Part shown: positions 52,363 to 64,000 of the stretch, piece after piece
Layout: each line of letters opens with the position of its first letter
Numbering within the stretch: position 1 is the first letter of the stretch
NCBI GenBank assembly: GCA_905233945.1
Contig: CAJOFY010000013.1
Span: forward strand, 1-64,000
Length of the DNA stretch: 64,000 nucleotides
DNA from: an uncultured bacterium
Lineage (GTDB): Bacteria; UBP6; UBA1177
Direction of reading: 5' to 3'
Made by a program: the position numbers and the translations under genes
The notes under the pieces: generated by a model
The model's database searches: none
What the model was told of the DNA's origin: nothing
Seen by the model: the letters and a program-made list of their open reading frames with translations, nothing else

Positions 52363-52560
52363 GGCTTCATGGCTGTTTGAGAGGGTTGCTATACAGAAAC
52401 TGGACACAAAAATGGTCAGTTCATGAAATTCGTGCTTTTTTTAGAAGTTTTTTCAAAAAAAAATAGTTGTATAAAAATTTTTTCAAAAATTTCGGAAAAA
52501 TTGTTGATTATTTGCTTTAAATCAGTGTTATTGATGAGGTTTAAGAATACGGAGAGATGT

Positions 52561-53226
52561 ATGAAAGTCGCACAGCTCACGATGAAAGATGTAAAACTCA
52601 TGGATTCTGAAATCCATAAAATGCGCGGATTTATCGGAAATATGTTTGAAAAATATGACCTTATCCACAATCACGGTCAAAATGGTTTTATTTACCGCTA
52701 TCCGCTTATTCAGTTCAAGACAGTTGACAAAAGCCCGATAATCCTGGCGATCGGAGAAGACGCAATAAAAATTTTCGGCGAAATATTTATGACGCTCGAC
52801 CATCTTGATATCGAAGGAAAATATATTCCGATAAATGAAAAGGAACTCACCGTCGCTGACTACCCTTTCGGAATATCTGAAAATACGATTACTTATGAAT
52901 TTATTCATTCATGGATTGCGCTGAATCAAAAGAATTACCCTGAATATCAGGCACTTGAAACTGTTAAAGAAAAGAGGGAAATGCTTTCGAGAATACTTGC
53001 CGGCAATCTGATTTCCATGTCAAAAGGGCTCGGCTATACCGTTCCAGCAAGAATCGAAGCTGAAACGACGCTCTATTCAATCAAAACCACACTCAAGAGA
53101 GTTGAAGTGATCGGATTTATAGGCTCTTTCAGAACAAATTTTGAAATTCCGGACTTTTTCGGCATCGGCAAAAGCGTAAGCCGCGGATTTGGAACGGTGA
53201 AAAGAATAAATAAGGAGGGGAAATGA
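52561..53226 (+). CDS. cas6: CRISPR-associated endoribonuclease Cas6
   Basis: A 221-residue RAMP-fold protein that cuts the pre-crRNA within each repeat, leaving an 8-nt 5' handle. The C-terminal glycine-rich loop FFGIGKSVSRGFGTVKR is the family hallmark, and NHGQNGFIYRYPLIQF is an early RAMP strand. ATG 52561 has GGAG upstream; an open extension to 52423 is AT-rich, lacks a ribosome site and is not included. It overlaps cas8b by 4 bp (ATGA). First gene of the operon. A convincing promoter was not found in the 250-bp gap upstream. Confidence 0.85.
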   Translation: MKVAQLTMKDVKLMDSEIHKMRGFIGNMFEKYDLIHNHGQNGFIYRYPLIQFKTVDKSPIILAIGEDAIKIFGEIFMTLDHLDIEGKYIPINEKELTVADYPFGISENTITYEFIHSWIALNQKNYPEYQALETVKEKREMLSRILAGNLISMSKGLGYTVPARIEAETTLYSIKTTLKRVEVIGFIGSFRTNFEIPDFFGIGKSVSRGFGTVKRINKEGK

Positions 53227-55130
53227 TAAACTACTTTAAAACATTGGGCGAAAGTATTTTGCTAAAAGACGGCTTCTGCAATGACCTGCCAGAAACAGAA
53301 AAGAAAAGGAAGCTTCTGAATTATATGACTTATATGCCTGATGAATCAAAATCTGAGTCAAGAGCTTTGGCTCTGTGTTTTGACACGGAAAAAGAAGAAT
53401 TCTGGTTTGAACTTGATAAAGAATGTACTCCCGAAAATAATGAATACTTTTTCGCTTTTCAACTTGCTTCGTCGCCAAACGCGACAAAGCAGCTGCTCTC
53501 TTTCAACTACAATGATTTTTCTGTTTTCTATAGTGGTGAACCGTTCTATAATCTTAAGGAAAATAAAAAGAAAATACCGCTGTCAGACAAATTCAAAGGG
53601 ATAGTAAATAAAATCATTGACATCTTTTATATAAAACAAGACAAGTTCGGTATACTGAATCCAGAAAAATTGAGGTCAAAACAAAAAGAAAAACTTCCGG
53701 AAAACAAAGATTTATCAACCCAATACAAAGATTTTATAAAGAAAGAATTCCTTCCTTCCAAAGATGCTAAGATTCCAATAATATTAGTAAAAATAAACGG
53801 CAAAACAATAATGGAAGATCCGGATCTAAAGGATACCTACATTGAAGTTGTCTGGAATACATTCATGAAAGGTGAAAAAAAAGATTTCACCCAAGCAAAA
53901 TGCTATCTTTGTGCTCAAAACAAAGCAGTTGTAAAAGAAGTAAATTTCCCTTTTATGAAATTTTACGGCACAACCAACGGCTTATTTTTTGAAGACATTA
54001 AACCTTCCAACAGCCATAAATCTTTTGCAGTTTGTGAAGATTGCAACAACGAAGTGCTTGTAGGAATGTCTTTCACAGAAAGAAAATTGAGAGACAGAAT
54101 ATTCGGCATTGATGTTCTGATCATACCTAAACTTGAAACAGTGCAGCCTGACTTTCAGAAAAAGAACTGGAGAAAGGTGGTAAAACTTCTGAAAAATGAA
54201 AAGACTAACGATTTTGATTCTCTCACTGAAGTAAAAAAGCTTTTAAATACTGCTGAAAAGGAAAACTGTTCATTTGATCTGCTGTTTTATGAAAAAATTA
54301 AAGCAAATTTTGCTGTTCTCAAACTTATCGCAGACGTTGAATACAGAGATTTACTTAAAAAGATGAGTCTTTTCGAGGATATTAACGAGGAATATGGTTT
54401 AAAAACTCTCAAATACCCATCCCCTATTGACTGGAAATTTATCAGATACGCTCTCTTTCCGAAACCACCTAAAGCAAAAGAACCTAAAATTTACAGGAAA
54501 GATTTTCTTGAACTTCTCAGTTCTTTCATAAACGGCAATTCTGTTGATTATACAGATTTAATCAACAAATTCACAGACATTTGGCAAGACAATTTCAATA
54601 GTGACAAAATTGACTATTTATCGCCTTTGAAAATGAGTTTTGTATTAGGAATATTTAATAAAACAAGTAACTTATCAGGAGTAACAAAAATGGAAGGAAA
54701 CGCTTTGACAAAAATTGCTAACGACCGTTACAATGAATTTTTTGAAAAACACGCTGAAATTTACGGGAACAATTATTTCAGACAGGGCTTGTTTCTTTTG
54801 GGAACAGTAATCAACGGTATTTTGTACAAACAAAAAGGAAAGTCTTCCAACTTTCTTCAAAAGTTGAATTTTAAAGGGATCATGCCAAGAAGAATTCCTG
54901 AACTTACGGCTTCTGTCCTTGAGTACGCAAAAATTTATAATGTCTACGAGGAAGCAGGAATTTGGGGGAACATATTTGACAGAATACAAGGCATCGAAAA
55001 CTCAAAACTCTCACCTTCTGAAGTTCTTTTCTATATTCTCTCCGGAATTTCTTTCAGCAAATACGAAGGCTTTATAAGAGGAACAGAAACCGAAGAAAAT
55101 CAAGAAGGAGAAAACGATGACAACGAATAA
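53223..55130 (+). CDS. cas8b: Type I-B Cascade large subunit Cas8b (Csh1/TM1802-like)
   Basis: A 635-residue large subunit expected to recognise the PAM and recruit Cas3. A four-Cys zinc-finger-like site is formed by C227-C230 (CYLC) and C271-C274 (CEDC), a feature of Csh1/TM1802-type Cas8 proteins. The C-terminal half (EVLFYILSGISFSKYEGFIRG) is helical. It is coupled to cas6 and overlaps the possible first start of cas7. The family is fast-evolving, so the subtype call rests also on neighbouring genes. Confidence 0.8.
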   Translation: MINYFKTLGESILLKDGFCNDLPETEKKRKLLNYMTYMPDESKSESRALALCFDTEKEEFWFELDKECTPENNEYFFAFQLASSPNATKQLLSFNYNDFSVFYSGEPFYNLKENKKKIPLSDKFKGIVNKIIDIFYIKQDKFGILNPEKLRSKQKEKLPENKDLSTQYKDFIKKEFLPSKDAKIPIILVKINGKTIMEDPDLKDTYIEVVWNTFMKGEKKDFTQAKCYLCAQNKAVVKEVNFPFMKFYGTTNGLFFEDIKPSNSHKSFAVCEDCNNEVLVGMSFTERKLRDRIFGIDVLIIPKLETVQPDFQKKNWRKVVKLLKNEKTNDFDSLTEVKKLLNTAEKENCSFDLLFYEKIKANFAVLKLIADVEYRDLLKKMSLFEDINEEYGLKTLKYPSPIDWKFIRYALFPKPPKAKEPKIYRKDFLELLSSFINGNSVDYTDLINKFTDIWQDNFNSDKIDYLSPLKMSFVLGIFNKTSNLSGVTKMEGNALTKIANDRYNEFFEKHAEIYGNNYFRQGLFLLGTVINGILYKQKGKSSNFLQKLNFKGIMPRRIPELTASVLEYAKIYNVYEEAGIWGNIFDRIQGIENSKLSPSEVLFYILSGISFSKYEGFIRGTETEENQEGENDDNE

Positions 55131-55176
55131 TAGTGGAACTTTAGATATTTTTTCAACAGACAAAAAGGAGAAAACC

Positions 55177-56016
55177 ATGAACAACAGCGAAATTCTTTTT
55201 ATTTACGATGCAAAAATGACAAATCCGAACGGAGACTTCGACAACGAAAACAAACCGAGAATGGATTACGACACAGAAAGAAATTTAGTCAGCGATGTGC
55301 GCCTTAAACGCTATCTCAGAGATTACTTTGAAACCAATCTTGGAGAAGAAATTTTTGTAACTGAAAAAGCAAAAGACGCAAAAGACAGAAAAGAACAACT
55401 GAAAAAAATCAATAAAAATTATACTGATCTTTTGGATGTCAGAATGTTCGGAGCAGTATTTGCGGCTGAAGGTGGGAATGATCATTTGACAGGTCCGATT
55501 CAGTTCAACTGGGGTTATTCTCTCAACAAAGTCCAGCTCTGCGAATCTTCTTCTATCACTTCAAGTTTCAGCTCCGGTGAAGGCATAGGGCATGATTACA
55601 GGGTGAAATATTCTCTTATAGCTTTTAACGGAAGCATAAACGGTTCTGCAGCAAACGAGACCAAACTGTCTGATGGCGACATAAAAATTTTTGATGAAGC
55701 TATGCTTAAAGCTATTCCTGCAAACAGAACCCGCTCAAAAATCAACCAGTTTCCGAGACTCTACATGAGAATCGAAATGAAAGACAACCAGACCTTTATG
55801 AAAGATCTGAGGGAATACGTGAAATTCATTCCTTTAATCGACGAATACAAAATAGAAACCTTAGAAAATTACGAGCTTAACATTTCTGAATTAGTTGAAT
55901 ATATCAATAAATTCAACGACAAAATAGAAAAGATAGTTTGTTGGAAAGATGACAAAATCAAGATCACAGGTTGGGAAAAACTGCCTAAAACAGCAGAATT
56001 GAACATTCTTCAATAA
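55177..56016 (+). CDS. cas7: Cascade backbone subunit Cas7 (Csh2 type)
   Basis: A 279-residue RAMP protein that polymerises along the crRNA. The start MNNSEILFIYDAKMTNPNGD followed by ENKPRMDYDTERNLVSDVRLKR is the Csh2 signature, and MFGAVFA and GPIQFNWGYSLNKV are in the thumb/palm region. I chose ATG 55177 on family alignment. A second ATG at 55117, overlapping the cas8b stop and with its own AAGGAG, would add 20 residues. Both have good ribosome sites. Confidence 0.88.
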   Translation: MNNSEILFIYDAKMTNPNGDFDNENKPRMDYDTERNLVSDVRLKRYLRDYFETNLGEEIFVTEKAKDAKDRKEQLKKINKNYTDLLDVRMFGAVFAAEGGNDHLTGPIQFNWGYSLNKVQLCESSSITSSFSSGEGIGHDYRVKYSLIAFNGSINGSAANETKLSDGDIKIFDEAMLKAIPANRTRSKINQFPRLYMRIEMKDNQTFMKDLREYVKFIPLIDEYKIETLENYELNISELVEYINKFNDKIEKIVCWKDDKIKITGWEKLPKTAELNILQ

Positions 56017-56026
56017 GGAGATTCGC

Positions 56027-56773
56027 ATGAAAAATCTTAAGAGAGCGATCTCTTTTGAGCTTTGCGGCAAATTTGCACAATTCAAAAAGTTTTATACAAA
56101 TTCCTCATCCCTGACCTATCTGATTCCGACGAGAACAACTATTATCGGGATTTTGGCTTCTATTATGAAAATGCCGAGAGACAGTTATTATAAAACTTTC
56201 AGCGAAGAAGAATTCGGAATAGCAGTCAAAATTTCCACCGGCTGTAAAATAAGAAAGCAAATTCAGACCATGAATTATCTGCAATCTCCAGGATCCAGCA
56301 AACAACACAGCCAATGCAAACTTGAAATGTTATTTCCTGAAACGTTGGGTGATTTGATTTCTTATAAAATTTATGTCGGAGCTTTTTCAGATGATTCACT
56401 GAAAGTATTGAACGAACTATCAGAAAAGATCTTTTCCGGTGATTTCGGATACGGAATTTATTTAGGACAGAGGCAATTCGGAGGCAACATCTCGAATTTA
56501 AAAGTTTTTGAAGAAAACGAACTCGTTTTTATGGAAGAATCCAATTCGCTTGATTCGGCATCCATCCTTGAAGATGCAAATATAAATCTTGATATTGACA
56601 CAAGAATAGTAACAGATCAGATGCCGACAAACATGGAAGAAGACTCCGGTAAAAACAAAGGCCGCAAACTCGGTACAATAAAAAGGATCGTCTACGAAAA
56701 AACAGGAAAGACACTACACGGGAATTTCAAGAACTGTTGGCTGATAGGAACAGAAACGATCTCATTTCTATAA
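56027..56773 (+). CDS. cas5: Cascade subunit Cas5 (type I-B)
   Basis: A 248-residue RAMP protein that caps the 5' handle of the crRNA in Cascade. AISFELCGKFAQFKKFYTNSS followed by YLIPTRTTIIGILASIM is the Cas5 N-terminal signature, and GDFGYGIYLGQRQFGGNI follows. AAGGAG lies before the ATG, 10 bp after cas7. It ends 8 bp before the preferred cas3 start. Confidence 0.88.
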   Translation: MKNLKRAISFELCGKFAQFKKFYTNSSSLTYLIPTRTTIIGILASIMKMPRDSYYKTFSEEEFGIAVKISTGCKIRKQIQTMNYLQSPGSSKQHSQCKLEMLFPETLGDLISYKIYVGAFSDDSLKVLNELSEKIFSGDFGYGIYLGQRQFGGNISNLKVFEENELVFMEESNSLDSASILEDANINLDIDTRIVTDQMPTNMEEDSGKNKGRKLGTIKRIVYEKTGKTLHGNFKNCWLIGTETISFL

Positions 56774-56781
56774 GGAAAATT

Positions 56782-59238
56782 ATGACAGCGACCAAACTTA
56801 TTTCACATCCGGCAGAAGGCAATGTAAAAGAAAAAACTCTTAAAGAACATCTTTGCAATGTCGCTGAAAAATCAAGAGAAACCATTCTTAAAATGAGACT
56901 TAACCTTTCCATTCTAAAAAAGGAAGATTTGGCTCAAATATCTTTTACTATCGGAATGCTACACGATTTCGGGAAAGCGACTTCATATTTTCAGGATTAT
57001 ATCAGAAACATCAGGGGCGGAGACAATTACACTAGACATGGTTTTGTTTCCGCTCTTGTTACTTACTATGCGATAGAAAAGTGCCTTGATCTTGAAGATT
57101 CCGATTTAAAAAGAAAGTTTCAGGCTATCGCCTACCTCATTGTCAAAAAACATCACGGCAATCTCGAAACTATAAAAAGCTCAGATGACGATGAATCTTT
57201 GAAAACAAGCATAGATGTCGCAAAAAAACAGTTGAAAAATATTGAGCAAAATCACAAATCTGCTGTTTCTGAAATATACCAAGAATGCGTCATTCCTATT
57301 TTTGACATTATCAATGCCATAGATTTTGAAGAATTTTCCGATTTTTTGGACAATGATGCTGAAGACATTTTCGATCCCGATGACGACAAAATCGAGCAAG
57401 ATAAAAATATTGAGCTTTTCTTTATTGCAAACCTGCTTTTTTCTGTTTTGATTGATTGTGACAAAAAGGATGCAGCCAGACTTGACGATTCTTATTTTGA
57501 AGGAAATCTTGAAGAACCAGAGAACGATATTTTTGCATATATTGCACATCTGAGAAAACAAAATCCCGAGAAATTTTCGCAGGAAATCCCGATAAATAGA
57601 ATCAGAACCGAATTTTTGGAAGAAATCTCGGCAAACGACAAAATAACTCCTGAAAATCACTTTTACACAATCACGGCACCTACAGGAATAGGAAAAACTT
57701 TCGGCTGCCTAGCATTCGCCAACAAATTAAAAAATCTGCTGCCTAAAGGGGAAGGAAGAATTATCTATGCCCTGCCCTACACTTCCATTATTGACCAGAA
57801 TTACGATGAATTTAAAAGAATTATTGAATTTAACAAAAAAGAGCTTTTTGAAAAAAGACCGGAAAGATATCTGCTGAAGCACCATCATCTTACTTTTGGT
57901 AAGATCGAAAACAGAACCGATGAAGATGATTATTCCTACAAATCGTATCTTGATGACAAACTTTTTGTGGAATCATGGGAATCTTCAATGATTGTAACCA
58001 CTTTTGTACAATTTTTTCATACTATGATTGGATTCCGGAACAAATTTCTTAAAAAATTCCACAACATAGTAAATTCCATCGTCATTTTGGACGAAGTACA
58101 GAACGTAGACCCCAACTATTATCGTTTACTTAAAAGAACCTTGAAAATTCTTGGAGAAAAATTCAATATTTATTTTCTGCTGATAACCGCAACCCAGCCG
58201 GAAATACTTGAAGATCCGATAGATTTAATTGATGCGTCGAAGTATATGAAAAATGAACTTTTCAACCGCGTCAGAATGTCATACGACCATGACACAAAAA
58301 ATGTGGAAGAGTTCTACCTCAACTTTGCTGAATCCTTTGAAGGGAAAAACTGTCTTATAGTTTTCAACACGCGCAAAGCTGCAATCGAAACCTATAAATA
58401 TTTATCCGAAAATATGAGAGGATATGAGTTTTTCTGTTTGACGACATATCTCATACCGAAAGACAGAAAGGAAAAAATTGAAGAAATCAAAAACAAAGTG
58501 AAAAGTCATGAGAAACTCATCGTAATTTCGACCCAAATGATTGAAGCCGGTGTTGATGTAAGTTTTGAATCCGTATTTCGTGATCTCGGACCTTTTGACT
58601 CTATTGTTCAGGTTGCCGGAAGGTGCAACCGCAGCGGAGAATACGGAATTCTTGGCGGCAGTATGACCCTACTGTCGTTAGGCACAAGCAATAATGTTTA
58701 CGATAAATTTTTAATACAAGCGGCTGACAAGGTGCTTCAGAATACAGAATATTCGAGTTCCGATTTTTATCAGTTATCAAAAGAATATTTCAGCAAATTT
58801 GATTATGAAGCAAAAAGCAGAAAATTACTTAAAGCTATTTGGCAATTAAATTATGACAGTCATATAAAAGACCAGACACCTGTATCCGAATTCAAATTGA
58901 TCGAAGATGATTATTCAGACACCTCTGTTTATATGCTCACCAACAAAGAATCTGATGAAAATATGCAGAAACTGTTGGAATTGATTTATGAAATAAAAGA
59001 AAATCCTACGGATAAAGATAACAACAAAAAGCTGCTTGAAATTGAAATACTGAAAGGTTTTCTTAAAAATTACCAGCTTAATTTGAGAGAAAAGGAAATC
59101 ACTCCTTATAATCACCTGATTGAGAACAAAGAGAGCTTTTATCAGTATGTCTCATTTAAAAATATTGCCGAAATCTATAATAAAAAGATTGGCTTTCTAA
59201 AAAAAACTAAAGAAGAATCAGGGGTTATTCAACTATAA
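56782..59238 (+). CDS. cas3: Cas3 helicase-nuclease
   Basis: An 818-residue effector that unwinds and degrades target DNA after Cascade binding. The N-terminal HD nuclease has HDFGKAT with H61-D62, H86 and KKHHGN near 124. The superfamily 2 helicase has Walker A TAPTGIGKT near 298, the DEVQ box (VILDEVQ) near 434, VFNTRKAA and QVAGRCNRSG near 610. HD and helicase are fused in the usual order. ATG 56782 is preferred; an in-frame ATG at 56737 lies inside cas5. It overlaps cas4 by one base (TAATG). Confidence 0.92.
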   Translation: MTATKLISHPAEGNVKEKTLKEHLCNVAEKSRETILKMRLNLSILKKEDLAQISFTIGMLHDFGKATSYFQDYIRNIRGGDNYTRHGFVSALVTYYAIEKCLDLEDSDLKRKFQAIAYLIVKKHHGNLETIKSSDDDESLKTSIDVAKKQLKNIEQNHKSAVSEIYQECVIPIFDIINAIDFEEFSDFLDNDAEDIFDPDDDKIEQDKNIELFFIANLLFSVLIDCDKKDAARLDDSYFEGNLEEPENDIFAYIAHLRKQNPEKFSQEIPINRIRTEFLEEISANDKITPENHFYTITAPTGIGKTFGCLAFANKLKNLLPKGEGRIIYALPYTSIIDQNYDEFKRIIEFNKKELFEKRPERYLLKHHHLTFGKIENRTDEDDYSYKSYLDDKLFVESWESSMIVTTFVQFFHTMIGFRNKFLKKFHNIVNSIVILDEVQNVDPNYYRLLKRTLKILGEKFNIYFLLITATQPEILEDPIDLIDASKYMKNELFNRVRMSYDHDTKNVEEFYLNFAESFEGKNCLIVFNTRKAAIETYKYLSENMRGYEFFCLTTYLIPKDRKEKIEEIKNKVKSHEKLIVISTQMIEAGVDVSFESVFRDLGPFDSIVQVAGRCNRSGEYGILGGSMTLLSLGTSNNVYDKFLIQAADKVLQNTEYSSSDFYQLSKEYFSKFDYEAKSRKLLKAIWQLNYDSHIKDQTPVSEFKLIEDDYSDTSVYMLTNKESDENMQKLLELIYEIKENPTDKDNNKKLLEIEILKGFLKNYQLNLREKEITPYNHLIENKESFYQYVSFKNIAEIYNKKIGFLKKTKEESGVIQL

Positions 59239-59819
59239 TGTGTATCTTAGTAAAACCTTCGGATTTACTGCAATATTTATATTGTCCAAGATTCATCTAC
59301 TTTTTTCATTCACTCGAAATTCCGGAACATCAGGAAAAACGCTACAAAGTTCAGGTCGGGCGAGAAATCCATGAGGAAAAAACCCAGATCAACAAGGATT
59401 ATCTCCGCAAAAAAATCGGAGCAACCGCCAAAGAGCAGGAAGTCTATCTTTCAAGCGAAAAATACCATCTGAAGGGAATCGTCGATGAAGTTCTTACTTT
59501 GAATGACGGAACAATGGCTCCGCTTGACTATAAATTTGCGGAATATTCCGACCATCTTTTTTCAACCTACAAATATCAGTCGCTCTGTTACGCCCTGCTG
59601 ATAGAGGAAAATTACGGAAAAAAAGTTGATCGCGGATTTTTGGTCTACACCCGTTCAAACAACAAACTGGTCACTCTCGAATTTACTGATGAAGACAGAG
59701 CTCAACTAATTGATATAATTAAAGAAATAGTTTTGATTATGAATACGGGATTTTATCCTAAAAAAACCAGAAACACCGCAAGATGCGGAGACTGCACATA
59801 CAGGAATATTTGCGTGTAA
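59238..59819 (+). CDS. cas4: Cas4 exonuclease
   Basis: A 193-residue RecB-like nuclease that helps choose PAM-adjacent, correctly oriented prespacers. Catalytic residues are in GREIHEE, GIVDEVL and PLDYKFAEY with YKYQSLCYALLI after. Fe-S cysteines are C16 and the C-terminal C183, C186 and C192 (CGDCTYRNIC). It is a stand-alone Cas4, coupled to cas3 by a shared base, and directly precedes cas1. Confidence 0.9.
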   Translation: MCILVKPSDLLQYLYCPRFIYFFHSLEIPEHQEKRYKVQVGREIHEEKTQINKDYLRKKIGATAKEQEVYLSSEKYHLKGIVDEVLTLNDGTMAPLDYKFAEYSDHLFSTYKYQSLCYALLIEENYGKKVDRGFLVYTRSNNKLVTLEFTDEDRAQLIDIIKEIVLIMNTGFYPKKTRNTARCGDCTYRNICV

Positions 59820-59826
59820 GGGAAAA

Positions 59827-60828
59827 ATGCAGCTTGTAATAAATTCAAAAGGTGCCTATATCAGAAAGCGCGGCGAATGTTTTGAAGTCACTGTCGATGA
59901 AAAAAAGAGCGAGATTTCAGCTTCAAAAGTCCAGTCAATTCTGATAACGACAGCGGTTCTGATTTCGACAGACGCGATCCTGCTTGCCTACGAAAACAAT
60001 ATCGACATTGTGTTTCTCGACAAATTCGGAAACCCTTTTTCAAGAATCTGGCACTCGAAATTCGGTTCAACAGCTTTGATAAGAAGACGGCAGCTTGAAC
60101 TTTCACAATCAAAGGAAGGTGTTGAAATCGTTAAGGAATGGATATGCGAGAAAATAGAATCACAGATTTCACTGCTTGAAAAACTTGCCCGCACCCGAGA
60201 AAACAAAAAAGAGATGATTGAAACAGCTGTCATCGCAATTTCCGAACAAAAATCGAAGCTTTCAGCCGTCAAAGCTGATTCGACCGACGAAGTACGCAAC
60301 ACGATCATGGCTTATGAAGGAGCTGCCAGCAGAATATATTTTGAAACTATTGCTGAAATTGTTCCGCCGCAATACAAATTCGACGGAAGAAGCAGGAATC
60401 CTGCGCAGGACTACTTCAATGCCTTTTTGAACTACGGTTACGGCATTTTATACGGCAGAGTCGAGAGAGCCTGCGTGATTTCAGGCCTGGATCCCTACTC
60501 CGGATTTCTTCACACGGATAACTACGGCAAAAAATCATTCGTGTTTGATATTATTGAACTTTTCAGACACCATGTCGATGAAATAGTTATAAAATTATTC
60601 TCAAAAAGGATGATAAAACAGGAAATGTGCCGCGAAATAAAAAACGGATTCACGCTCGAAAAAGAAGGAAAACAGCTGATTGTCGGTGAATTCAACAAAG
60701 AAATGGAAGAAACTATCCGTTACCGCGGACGGAACATTAAAAAATGCAACGTGATAGAATTCGAGTGCCACAGAATAGCCAACAAATTCATAGGAGAAAG
60801 CCGCGATGCTGACATGGTTGGTATATGA
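59827..60828 (+). CDS. cas1: Cas1 integrase
   Basis: The 333-residue integrase inserts new spacers at the leader end of the array. Metal ligands are E164 (AYEGAASRIYFE), H229 (SGFLHTDNYG) and D241 (FVFDIIELFRH), in standard spacing. The N-terminal beta domain contains ISTDAILLAYENNIDIVFLD. No reverse-transcriptase or Cas6 fusion. It overlaps cas2 by 23 bp. Confidence 0.95.
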   Translation: MQLVINSKGAYIRKRGECFEVTVDEKKSEISASKVQSILITTAVLISTDAILLAYENNIDIVFLDKFGNPFSRIWHSKFGSTALIRRRQLELSQSKEGVEIVKEWICEKIESQISLLEKLARTRENKKEMIETAVIAISEQKSKLSAVKADSTDEVRNTIMAYEGAASRIYFETIAEIVPPQYKFDGRSRNPAQDYFNAFLNYGYGILYGRVERACVISGLDPYSGFLHTDNYGKKSFVFDIIELFRHHVDEIVIKLFSKRMIKQEMCREIKNGFTLEKEGKQLIVGEFNKEMEETIRYRGRNIKKCNVIEFECHRIANKFIGESRDADMVGI

Positions 60829-61096
60829 CATATCCGACGACAAAAAGAGAAACAATGTCGTCCGCGCCTGCAAAGATGCAGGGCTTTACCGCGTTCAGAA
60901 GAGCGTTTTTCTTGGCGACATCGAACGCAGCCGACTCGATGAACTTTACTTGAAATGCGCAGATATTATTGATAAAAACATTGATTCACTTTACATTTTC
61001 CCGATGTGTAAGGAAGATTTTCAGCGTGTCAAAACCGCAGGAAACGCCTTTGACAAAAAGTTGGTAAGTGACGAAATTCTATCAATGTTTTTTTAA
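60806..61096 (+). CDS. cas2: Cas2 adaptation protein
   Basis: The 96-residue ferredoxin-fold partner of Cas1. MLTWLVYDIS with D8, then KRNNVVRACKDAGLYRVQKSV and SLYIFPMC are the family pattern. It ends 237 bp before the first CRISPR repeat. Adaptation and interference genes are thus in one continuous run with the array. Confidence 0.93.
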   Translation: MLTWLVYDISDDKKRNNVVRACKDAGLYRVQKSVFLGDIERSRLDELYLKCADIIDKNIDSLYIFPMCKEDFQRVKTAGNAFDKKLVSDEILSMFF

Positions 61097-61333
61097 GGCA
61101 CGCTCTTTGACAACTGAGTAATAGAAATTGACTGAATCTGGTGTTTTTATAGCCACTTTCGACTAAATTTAAACTAACACACTGGAATCATTAAGTAACT
61201 CAAACACAAAAACCTGTAAAGCAGCACAAAAAAACTTGATTTCAACAAGATTTTTGCTAAAAAAGAGCGTTTTTCCGTTCATCAAAAACCGAGCTAAGCA
61301 CTTAATATCATTTTATATATTAAGAAAGATTGG
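61097..61333 (+). promoter_or_regulatory. CRISPR leader
   Basis: An AT-rich 237-bp non-coding stretch between cas2 and the first repeat. GCTCTTTGACAAC lies at 61102-61114, close to the CTTTGACA element often seen in leaders. CTTAATAT (61301-61308) and its complement ATATTAAG (61317-61324) form an inverted repeat nine bases before repeat 1, and TATATT within it could be a -10. A CTTG/CAAG stem lies further upstream near 61235. Confidence 0.7.
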
Positions 61334-61556
61334 GTCATTAGGCTAAATCCATGAAAACAAGGGTTGAAACTGAAAGATGGCAAAGTGTTATTTGTTGTAA
61401 GTTCGGAGTCATTAGGCTAAATCCATGAAAACAAGGGTTGAAACACAAGATTGTTTTTGACTGCAATAAGGCCTTTCAGGCCTGTCATTAGGCTAAATCC
61501 ATGAAAACAAGGGTTGAAACCAGATTGAGTATGAAGGAATCGCAAGCGAAGGAACT

Positions 61557-61583
61557 GTCATTAGGCTAAATCCATGAAAACAA
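61557..61583 (+). repeat. Truncated CRISPR repeat 4
   Basis: The first 27 nt of the repeat, ending AAAACAA; the final GGGTTGAAAC is missing. The following spacer 4 is 38 nt, a normal length. The lost segment holds the handle and the expected Cas6 cut site. Confidence 0.9.
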
Positions 61584-61985
61584 ACTGTATCGGCTCCCAT
61601 CTGTGTATTGCCGCCCATAGTGTCATTAGGCTAAATCCATGAAAACAAGGGTTGAAACTAATGTCAAAATCATACTCATCATAATTCCATGCTGGTCATT
61701 AGGCTAAATCCATGAAAACAAGGGTTGAAACAGTAATCCGGATCGGCAAGCAGTGCGAGATCTGCGAGTCATTAGGCTAAATCCATGAAAACAAGGGTTG
61801 AAACTGATTTTGCAAATAATCCTGGAAAAGTTTTATTGCCGTCATTAGGCTAAATCCATGAAAACAAGGGTTGAAACACACGTTTGCAAATTTCAACGGC
61901 GAGCCCGACATCGTCATTAGGCTAAATCCATGAAAACAAGGGTTGAAACCAGATTGAGTATGAAGGAATCGCAAGCGAAGGAACT

Positions 61986-62012
61986 GTCATTAGGCTAAAT
62001 CCATGAAAACAA
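61986..62012 (+). repeat. Truncated CRISPR repeat 10
   Basis: The same 27-nt form as repeat 4, again directly after the cagattgag spacer. Here the next spacer is only 25 nt (62013-62037) and unrelated to spacer 4. Confidence 0.9.
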
Positions 62013-64000
62013 CCTAAAGGTCAAGTTCCTTGGTATAGTCATTAGGCTAAATCCATGAAAACAAGGGTTGAAACTCATTTTTATGAAATTGGAAAAAGAA
62101 GCAGTGCTTGTCATTAGGCTAAATCCATGAAAACAAGGGTTGAAACAGACAAATGGCAAAGTGTTATCTGTTGCAAGTTAGGGAAGGTCATTAGGCTAAA
62201 TCCATGAAAACAAGGGTTGAAACCTTTCTTTTGAAAGAAGGGTAAACTCGTTCCCATTCCGTCATTAGGCTAAATCCATGAAAACAAGGGTTGAAACTCC
62301 AGCAGTTCAAACGTATCGCACGTGGTTTCAAAGTCATTAGGCTAAATCCATGAAAACAAGGGTTGAAACATAAATCAAATCCATCGAGATCTTCTCTGAA
62401 AAGAAGGGTCATTAGGCTAAATCCATGAAAACAAGGGTTGAAACTTTATTATCTTCGAGAATTTCTATCTCGCATATATTTGTCATTAGGCTAAATCCAT
62501 GAAAACAAGGGTTGAAACTTAATTTGTTTTACGCCATATGCTGTTTCGATTTTGGGTCATTAGGCTAAATCCATGAAAACAAGGGTTGAAACATAAATTT
62601 CTATAAGGCGGCGTCAGATGCGAAAAAGGTCATTAGGCTAAATCCATGAAAACAAGGGTTGAAACTTTCCATACATTTCAAGCGTATAAATCATGTTTCC
62701 GAGTCATTAGGCTAAATCCATGAAAACAAGGGTTGAAACACACTTTTGCAAATTTCAACGGCGAGCCCGACATCGTCATTAGGCTAAATCCATGAAAACA
62801 AGGGTTGAAACTAAAATTGACCCAGATTATCGCCTTCTTCTCTCCGAGAGGTCATTAGGCTAAATCCATGAAAACAAGGGTTGAAACTACAAGACAGCTT
62901 TGCAGGCACGGTTCGCCTTGCACAGTCATTAGGCTAAATCCATGAAAACAAGGGTTGAAACTTTCGTAAGCCCATTTTTCAAACTCTGCCTGAGCTACTT
63001 GTCATTAGGCTAAATCCATGAAAACAAGGGTTGAAACTAGACGGACCCATCTATTGCGCTGACTTCAATAATGCCTTGTCATTAGGCTAAATCCATGAAA
63101 ACAAGGGTTGAAACTAGATTTCAACGTAATCTACAATTACAGAATGCGCGGTCATTAGGCTAAATCCATGAAAACAAGGGTTGAAACTTTTTCTTCGACA
63201 AAACCGTATTGACCGCAGGCATAAGTCATTAGGCTAAATCCATGAAAACAAGGGTTGAAACTTTTACAAATTTTGCTTTTTGTTTTTCTGACCATCTAGT
63301 CATTAGGCTAAATCCATGAAAACAAGGGTTGAAACCTCAGGCTGAAAAAATTTATTTGCAAATAGCAGATATAGTCATTAGGCTAAATCCATGAAAACAA
63401 GGGTTGAAACCGTGTCCGCACCCATCTGAGTATTAGTGCCCATCGGCGGTCATTAGGCTAAATCCATGAAAACAAGGGTTGAAACATTATTATCTGAATT
63501 GAAAATATGCCAACTAAAAGAGGTCATTAGGCTAAATCCATGAAAACAAGGGTTGAAACTCGATAACAATACGGGCTTTGTTTACGTTGCAATATAGTCA
63601 TTAGGCTAAATCCATGAAAACAAGGGTTGAAACTGCCTTCGAGTGATTTTTTTAAGCGCGTGTCAGAAAAGGTCATTAGGCTAAATCCATGAAAACAAGG
63701 GTTGAAACTTTATCATTCTGTAATGCGCTTTGTCTGCGGTGTAAAGGTCATTAGGCTAAATCCATGAAAACAAGGGTTGAAACTGCAGTAGTGCGATTCT
63801 CTGCTTGTGTATTTCACCCGGTCATTAGGCTAAATCCATGAAAACAAGGGTTGAAACCATGAGTGAGAATTTCCTCGGACGGTTTTAAACGATGGTCATT
63901 AGGCTAAATCCATGAAAACAAGGGTTGAAACAAAAGTTTTCCCAATGTCCATGCGTCACTTGTTATAAAGGTCATTAGGCTAAATCCATGAAAACAAGGG

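Follow-up and report, generated by a model that had tools for sequence, protein, structure and literature searches.

Two spacers of one CRISPR array in an uncultured bacterium, spacers 4 and 29, are probably two separate captures, made at different times from the same PAM-defined site in a conserved gene of two diverged relatives of one invader, itself probably a phage. This reading comes from sequence comparison within the window (the whole stretch of 64,000 nucleotides that was analysed), in which the similarity of the two spacers and the bias of their differences towards silent codon changes are not expected by chance.

The array adjoins a complete type I-B cas operon

A CRISPR array occupies the end of the window, immediately after a complete type I-B cas operon (order cas6-8-7-5-3-4-1-2). 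Pfam and TIGR profiles revealed Cas8b (Csh1/TM1802) together with Cas7, Cas5, Cas3 and Cas6, as type I-B calls for, with the Cas5h and Csh1 models matching below their cut-off, and the adaptation genes cas4-cas1-cas2 (59238-61096) sit beside the array, which starts at 61334.

52423..53226, plus strand: cas6b (Pfam PF17262/PF17955)
53223..55130, plus strand: cas8b, TM1802/Csh1-like (PF09484 above cut-off; TIGR02556/TIGR02591 below cut-off)
55117..56016, plus strand: cas7, Csh2 (TIGR02590 above its cut-off)
56027..56773, plus strand: cas5b (PF09704; TIGR02593 above cut-off; TIGR02592 with E 1.1e-20, below cut-off)
56737..59238, plus strand: cas3, HD and helicase (TIGR01587 and TIGR01596 above cut-off)
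59238..59819, plus strand: cas4 (TIGR00372)
59827..60828, plus strand: cas1 (TIGR00287)
60806..61096, plus strand: cas2 (TIGR01573)
61097..61333, plus strand: presumed leader, by position only, between cas2 and the first repeat
61334..64000, plus strand: CRISPR array, leader side at cas2, running past the window to C13:64744

As a whole the array comprises 47 repeats of 37 bases and 46 spacers, the first repeat beginning 237 bases after cas2. The full 37-nt repeat reads GTCATTAGGCTAAATCCATGAAAACAAGGGTTGAAAC, and a 27-nt core is identical in all 47 repeats. We assigned the leader to the cas2 side because the last repeat, at the end far from cas2, is degenerate (GGGTTCAAC) and because the repeat has GTTGAAAC as its 3' end, the usual kind of 5' handle in type I-B crRNAs. 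With the leader at cas2 and the repeat end serving as 5' handle, each spacer, as printed, therefore begins at its PAM and seed side.

Spacers 4 and 29 are homologous and differ mostly at silent positions

The first-pass annotation had proposed that spacers 4 and 29 target one conserved peptide on the antisense strand. We recovered both spacers as first annotated, at 61584-61621 (spacer 4, raw boundary) and 63411-63448 (spacer 29), and their reverse complements translate into the peptides that had been claimed. The start of spacer 4 nevertheless needed correction. The repeat before it continues after its 27 bases with ACTGTATC, whereas a full repeat ends in GGGTTGAAAC; if the 8 bases GGGTTGAA were lost, the AC at 61584-61585 still belongs to the repeat as its terminal dinucleotide, and spacer 4 therefore occupies 61586-61621. 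So corrected, it is 36 nt or 12 codons long and has the same first target base as spacer 29, while the raw boundary shifts it by two bases relative to spacer 29; the common start of the two spacers thus depends on giving this AC to truncated repeat 4.

61557..61585, plus strand: truncated repeat 4, the first 27 nt (to 61583) followed by AC, 8 nt short of the full 37-nt repeat
61586..61621, minus strand: spacer 4 (corrected start; raw boundary 61584), antisense reading TMGGNTQMGADT
63411..63448, minus strand: spacer 29, antisense reading PMGTNTQMGADT

With the corrected boundary the two spacers are identical at 26 of 36 bases, in register and at offset 0, and the antisense frame has 5 silent and 2 replacing codon differences. 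Within MGxNTQMGADT a recount upheld the earlier tally of five silent changes among six differing codons (ACA/ACT, GGA/GGT, GCC/GCG, GAT/GAC and ACA/ACG), the residue-changing pair being GGC/ACT. The local alignment score of 18 exceeds the maximum of 14 obtained when the two spacers were shuffled 20,000 times (0/20,000 reach it), which places their homology beyond chance, and in an array-wide control the best pair of 60 shuffled arrays scored at most 17. When ten substitutions were placed at random, 103 of 20,000 trials (0.5%) left a frame open and altered no more than two of its residues. On the opposite strand, the sole comparable frame is interrupted by a stop in spacer 29. The shared peptide is short, at 12 residues, and its frame is read from two sequences.

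Other repeated spacers share the PAM-side start

The array holds further related spacers. Spacers 3 and 9 are identical, and two additional pairs are not:

61371..61407, minus strand: spacer 1, homologous to spacer 12, antisense reading PNLQQITLCHLS
62147..62186, minus strand: spacer 12, antisense reading (F)PNLQQITLCHLS
61878..61912, plus strand: spacer 8, one mismatch to spacer 20 (base 5), sense reading TFANFNGEPDI
62740..62774, plus strand: spacer 20, sense reading TFANFNGEPDI

Spacers 1 and 12 are identical at 30 of 37 bases, at offset 0. Their antisense frame PNLQQITLCHLS keeps 12 of 12 residues across 5 silent codon changes, a degree of conservation found in 2 of 20,000 trials of random substitution placement, while the sense frame (ERWQSVICCKFG/DKWQSVICCKLG) keeps 9 of 12 residues and changes 3. 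The contrast that the first-pass annotation had drawn between an antisense pair 4/29 and a sense pair 1/12 accordingly does not hold, as the best-conserved frame of 1/12 is antisense too; judging by their codon patterns, each of the two pairs probably lies antisense to its gene. Spacers 8 and 20 are identical at 34 of 35 bases, at offset 0, and their single difference is silent in the sense frame, one change having no statistical weight. The mismatch falls at spacer position 5, within the presumed seed; this pair could have arisen when the host re-captured an escape mutant, or by copying followed by a single mutation. A further candidate, pair 2/24 (score 14, offset 9), was dropped, scores of at least 14 being reached in 13 of 60 shuffled arrays.

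All three non-identical pairs thus begin at the same PAM-side base (for 4/29 with the corrected boundary), and in two of the three the lengths differ at the far end (37/40 nt for 1/12 and 36/38 nt for 4/29). A copied spacer normally retains both ends. The combination of a fixed start with a variable far end therefore favours PAM-anchored capture, which copying within the array does not predict. In addition, the younger member of every repeated pair (spacers 1, 3, 4 and 8) is among the 8 leader-proximal spacers, a clustering with P about 0.006 under random pairing in a post hoc calculation. The first-pass view of 4/29 as separate captures from diverged homologues, as for 1/12, is partly supported, in that one conserved site, mostly silent divergence and a shared PAM-side start (4/29, 1/12, 8/20) are all present; the target itself was not located.

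Alternative origins of the pair

Next to spacer 4 the array is irregular. Repeats 4 and 10 (61557-61583 and 61986-62012) stop after the same 27 bases, each behind one of the identical spacers 3 and 9, and the stretch common to both sites is exactly 100 nt long (61484-61583 = 61913-62012).

61521..61556, plus strand: spacer 3, identical to spacer 9
61950..61985, plus strand: spacer 9, identical to spacer 3
61986..62012, plus strand: truncated repeat 10, 27 nt, followed by remnant spacer 10
62013-62037: spacer 10, a 25-nt remnant after truncated repeat 10

This arrangement could be an assembly junction or a slippage deletion, and the region adjoining spacer 4 may be misassembled. If the assembly had merged two host strains that had each taken a spacer of their own from one phage family, spacers 4 and 29 would never have stood in one array. 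The junction-like 100-nt stretch fits such a merger, and one of its truncated repeats directly precedes spacer 4. We nevertheless consider a merger unlikely: spacer 29 lies within an intact stretch, the genome is 99.7% complete with 0.38% contamination, and neither pair 1/12 nor pair 8/20 adjoins the junctions. A merger would, in any case, leave spacers 4 and 29 as separate captures from homologous sites.

Alternatively, slippage or recombination of a repeat-spacer unit inside the array, followed by mutation, might have made spacer 4 from spacer 29 or the reverse. In the SpacerPlacer survey, 695 of the 805 candidates were put down to duplication, the process from which repeated spacers usually stem, and re-acquisition of identical spacers is rare by comparison (PMC11472070); copying could explain both the identical pair 3/9 and the pair 8/20 with its one-base difference. 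For 4/29, however, we regard it as very unlikely. The ten differences in 36 bases cluster at silent sites of one frame, and such clustering requires protein-level selection, to which spacers are not subject, so copying cannot explain the silent bias; mostly silent divergence at one coding site therefore speaks for two relatives of one invader and not for an intra-array copy. Moreover, all 47 repeat cores are identical, so decay of the array has not gone that far, and the far ends are unequal in length. Finally, it is extremely improbable that spacers 4 and 29 are unrelated and their peptide a coincidence among the many pairs and frames inspected, for although so short a motif did give one exact pattern match by chance, neither the pairwise nor the array-wide shuffles reached the observed score and two other pairs of the same array behave alike.

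Searches for the targeted gene

As the first-pass annotation had suggested, we looked for NTQMGADT in phages and for a PAM common to both protospacers. Exact degenerate patterns for NTQMGADT and MGxNTQMGA had no match in IMG/VR, and a tblastn search of phages with the two peptides gave no protospacer. One pattern run on GTDB contigs gave a single match, the N-terminus of an archaeal trehalose-6-phosphate synthase without the MGx, which we attribute to chance. Similarity searches with the spacer DNA likewise located no protospacer from which a PAM could be read: blastn gave no protospacer for 45 spacers in 50,697 phage records, no credible target for most spacers in the host genome and 27 other genomes of its phylum, no self-target in the host genome, and no credible target in plasmids for a subset of spacers. 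Literally, this is the outcome that the first-pass annotation had named as refuting its proposal, the lack of a coding match in any related mobile element; we do not count it as a refutation, since absence from such sequence collections is common for environmental CRISPR arrays.

Patterns for spacers 8/20, 1/12 and 3/9 matched only one locus in IMG/VR (L110), an antisense reading within a large phage ORF that we ascribe to chance, and patterns for 8/20 and 1/12 across the host phylum gave no target that we accepted. A near-match to the sense frame of 1/12, CQVINCCKLG, occurs in five genomes of the same genus (L028-L031, L033); these matches differ by 3 bases and presumably belong to a conserved host gene.

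The relaxed pattern MGxNTQMG had five matches in IMG/VR. Four were set aside: two lie in very short readings, and a tape-measure-like protein and an unclassified protein account for one each. The fifth (L039) is on a Mu-like phage contig, in a phrog_6911 protein with MGENTQMGEG. In related phages the phrog_6911 gene follows a neck or tail gene; it is encoded by 61 contigs, 37 of which we aligned with the L039 protein. In this alignment a glutamine is nearly invariant and N-x-Q-[LM]-G, common to the spacer peptide, recurs. The fit of the peptide to the family, computed without the L039 lead sequence and without a valine that possibly derives from the repeat, gave a post hoc shuffle P of about 0.01 for that position and of 0.08-0.17 when the whole family was considered. 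This weak motif sharing makes phrog_6911, a phage neck/tail family, only a lead as the putative target.

Separately, three same-genus genomes carry Phage_tail_S (Mu gpG family) genes that score above the Pfam cut-off (L106 in G026, L108 in G019 and L109 in G014). In G026 the gene stands beside a portal-like gene, and gp36/gp37-like genes (L040) lie about 7 kb off. These loci suggest Mu-like prophages; no spacer matches them.

A proposed course of events and its relation to known systems

On the basis of the observed homology, silent bias, shared start base and complete I-B cas set, we propose that spacer 29, farther from the leader, would be the older capture. A relative of the invader, presumably a phage, that had drifted at silent positions, including within the seed, would have entered the host later, and Cas1, Cas2 and Cas4 would have excised a spacer at the same presumed PAM again, yielding spacer 4. 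Imperfect matching to the older spacer 29 may have aided the new capture by priming; perhaps priming did help, and the array order, from which the order in time is presumed, is consistent with it. A wider reading, in which the array systematically refreshes its memory, newer spacers re-capturing protospacers whose older spacers had been outdated by seed mutation and mismatched recognition steering adaptation to the same PAM, appears quite unlikely to us.

Comparable behaviour is documented, and the pair 4/29 is a clear, clean instance of it, not a new kind. In Legionella pneumophila, the same or overlapping spacers within individual arrays have been read as repeated invasion by related elements (PMC5071653), and here, too, several spacers of one array would sample the same sequence from related invaders. 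There, however, the recurrent element LME-1 was identified, whereas here the searches located no target; the two spacers here diverge mainly by silent codon changes and begin at the same PAM-side base. In Thermus, partially overlapping spacers were similarly acquired independently from one locus (PMC6452258), but between arrays or systems of sequenced genomes and not inside one array. Primed or interference-driven acquisition (PMC5059440) resembles our proposal in concerning type I systems that add new spacers against an element which an older spacer already matches in part; priming is known to yield many diverse spacers near the primed site, whereas we propose re-capture at the same site, and priming is not visible in sequence.

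The array by itself thus reveals a history of encounters between an uncultured host and a diverging invader family, down to the frame in which an invader gene is translated. To find the invader in new viromes, MG[GT]NTQMGADT, PNLQQITLCHLS and TFANFNGEPDI can serve as peptide handles, and ATGGGNNNNAAYACNCARATGGGNGCNGAYAC is likewise a spacer-peptide query for metagenomes and viromes.
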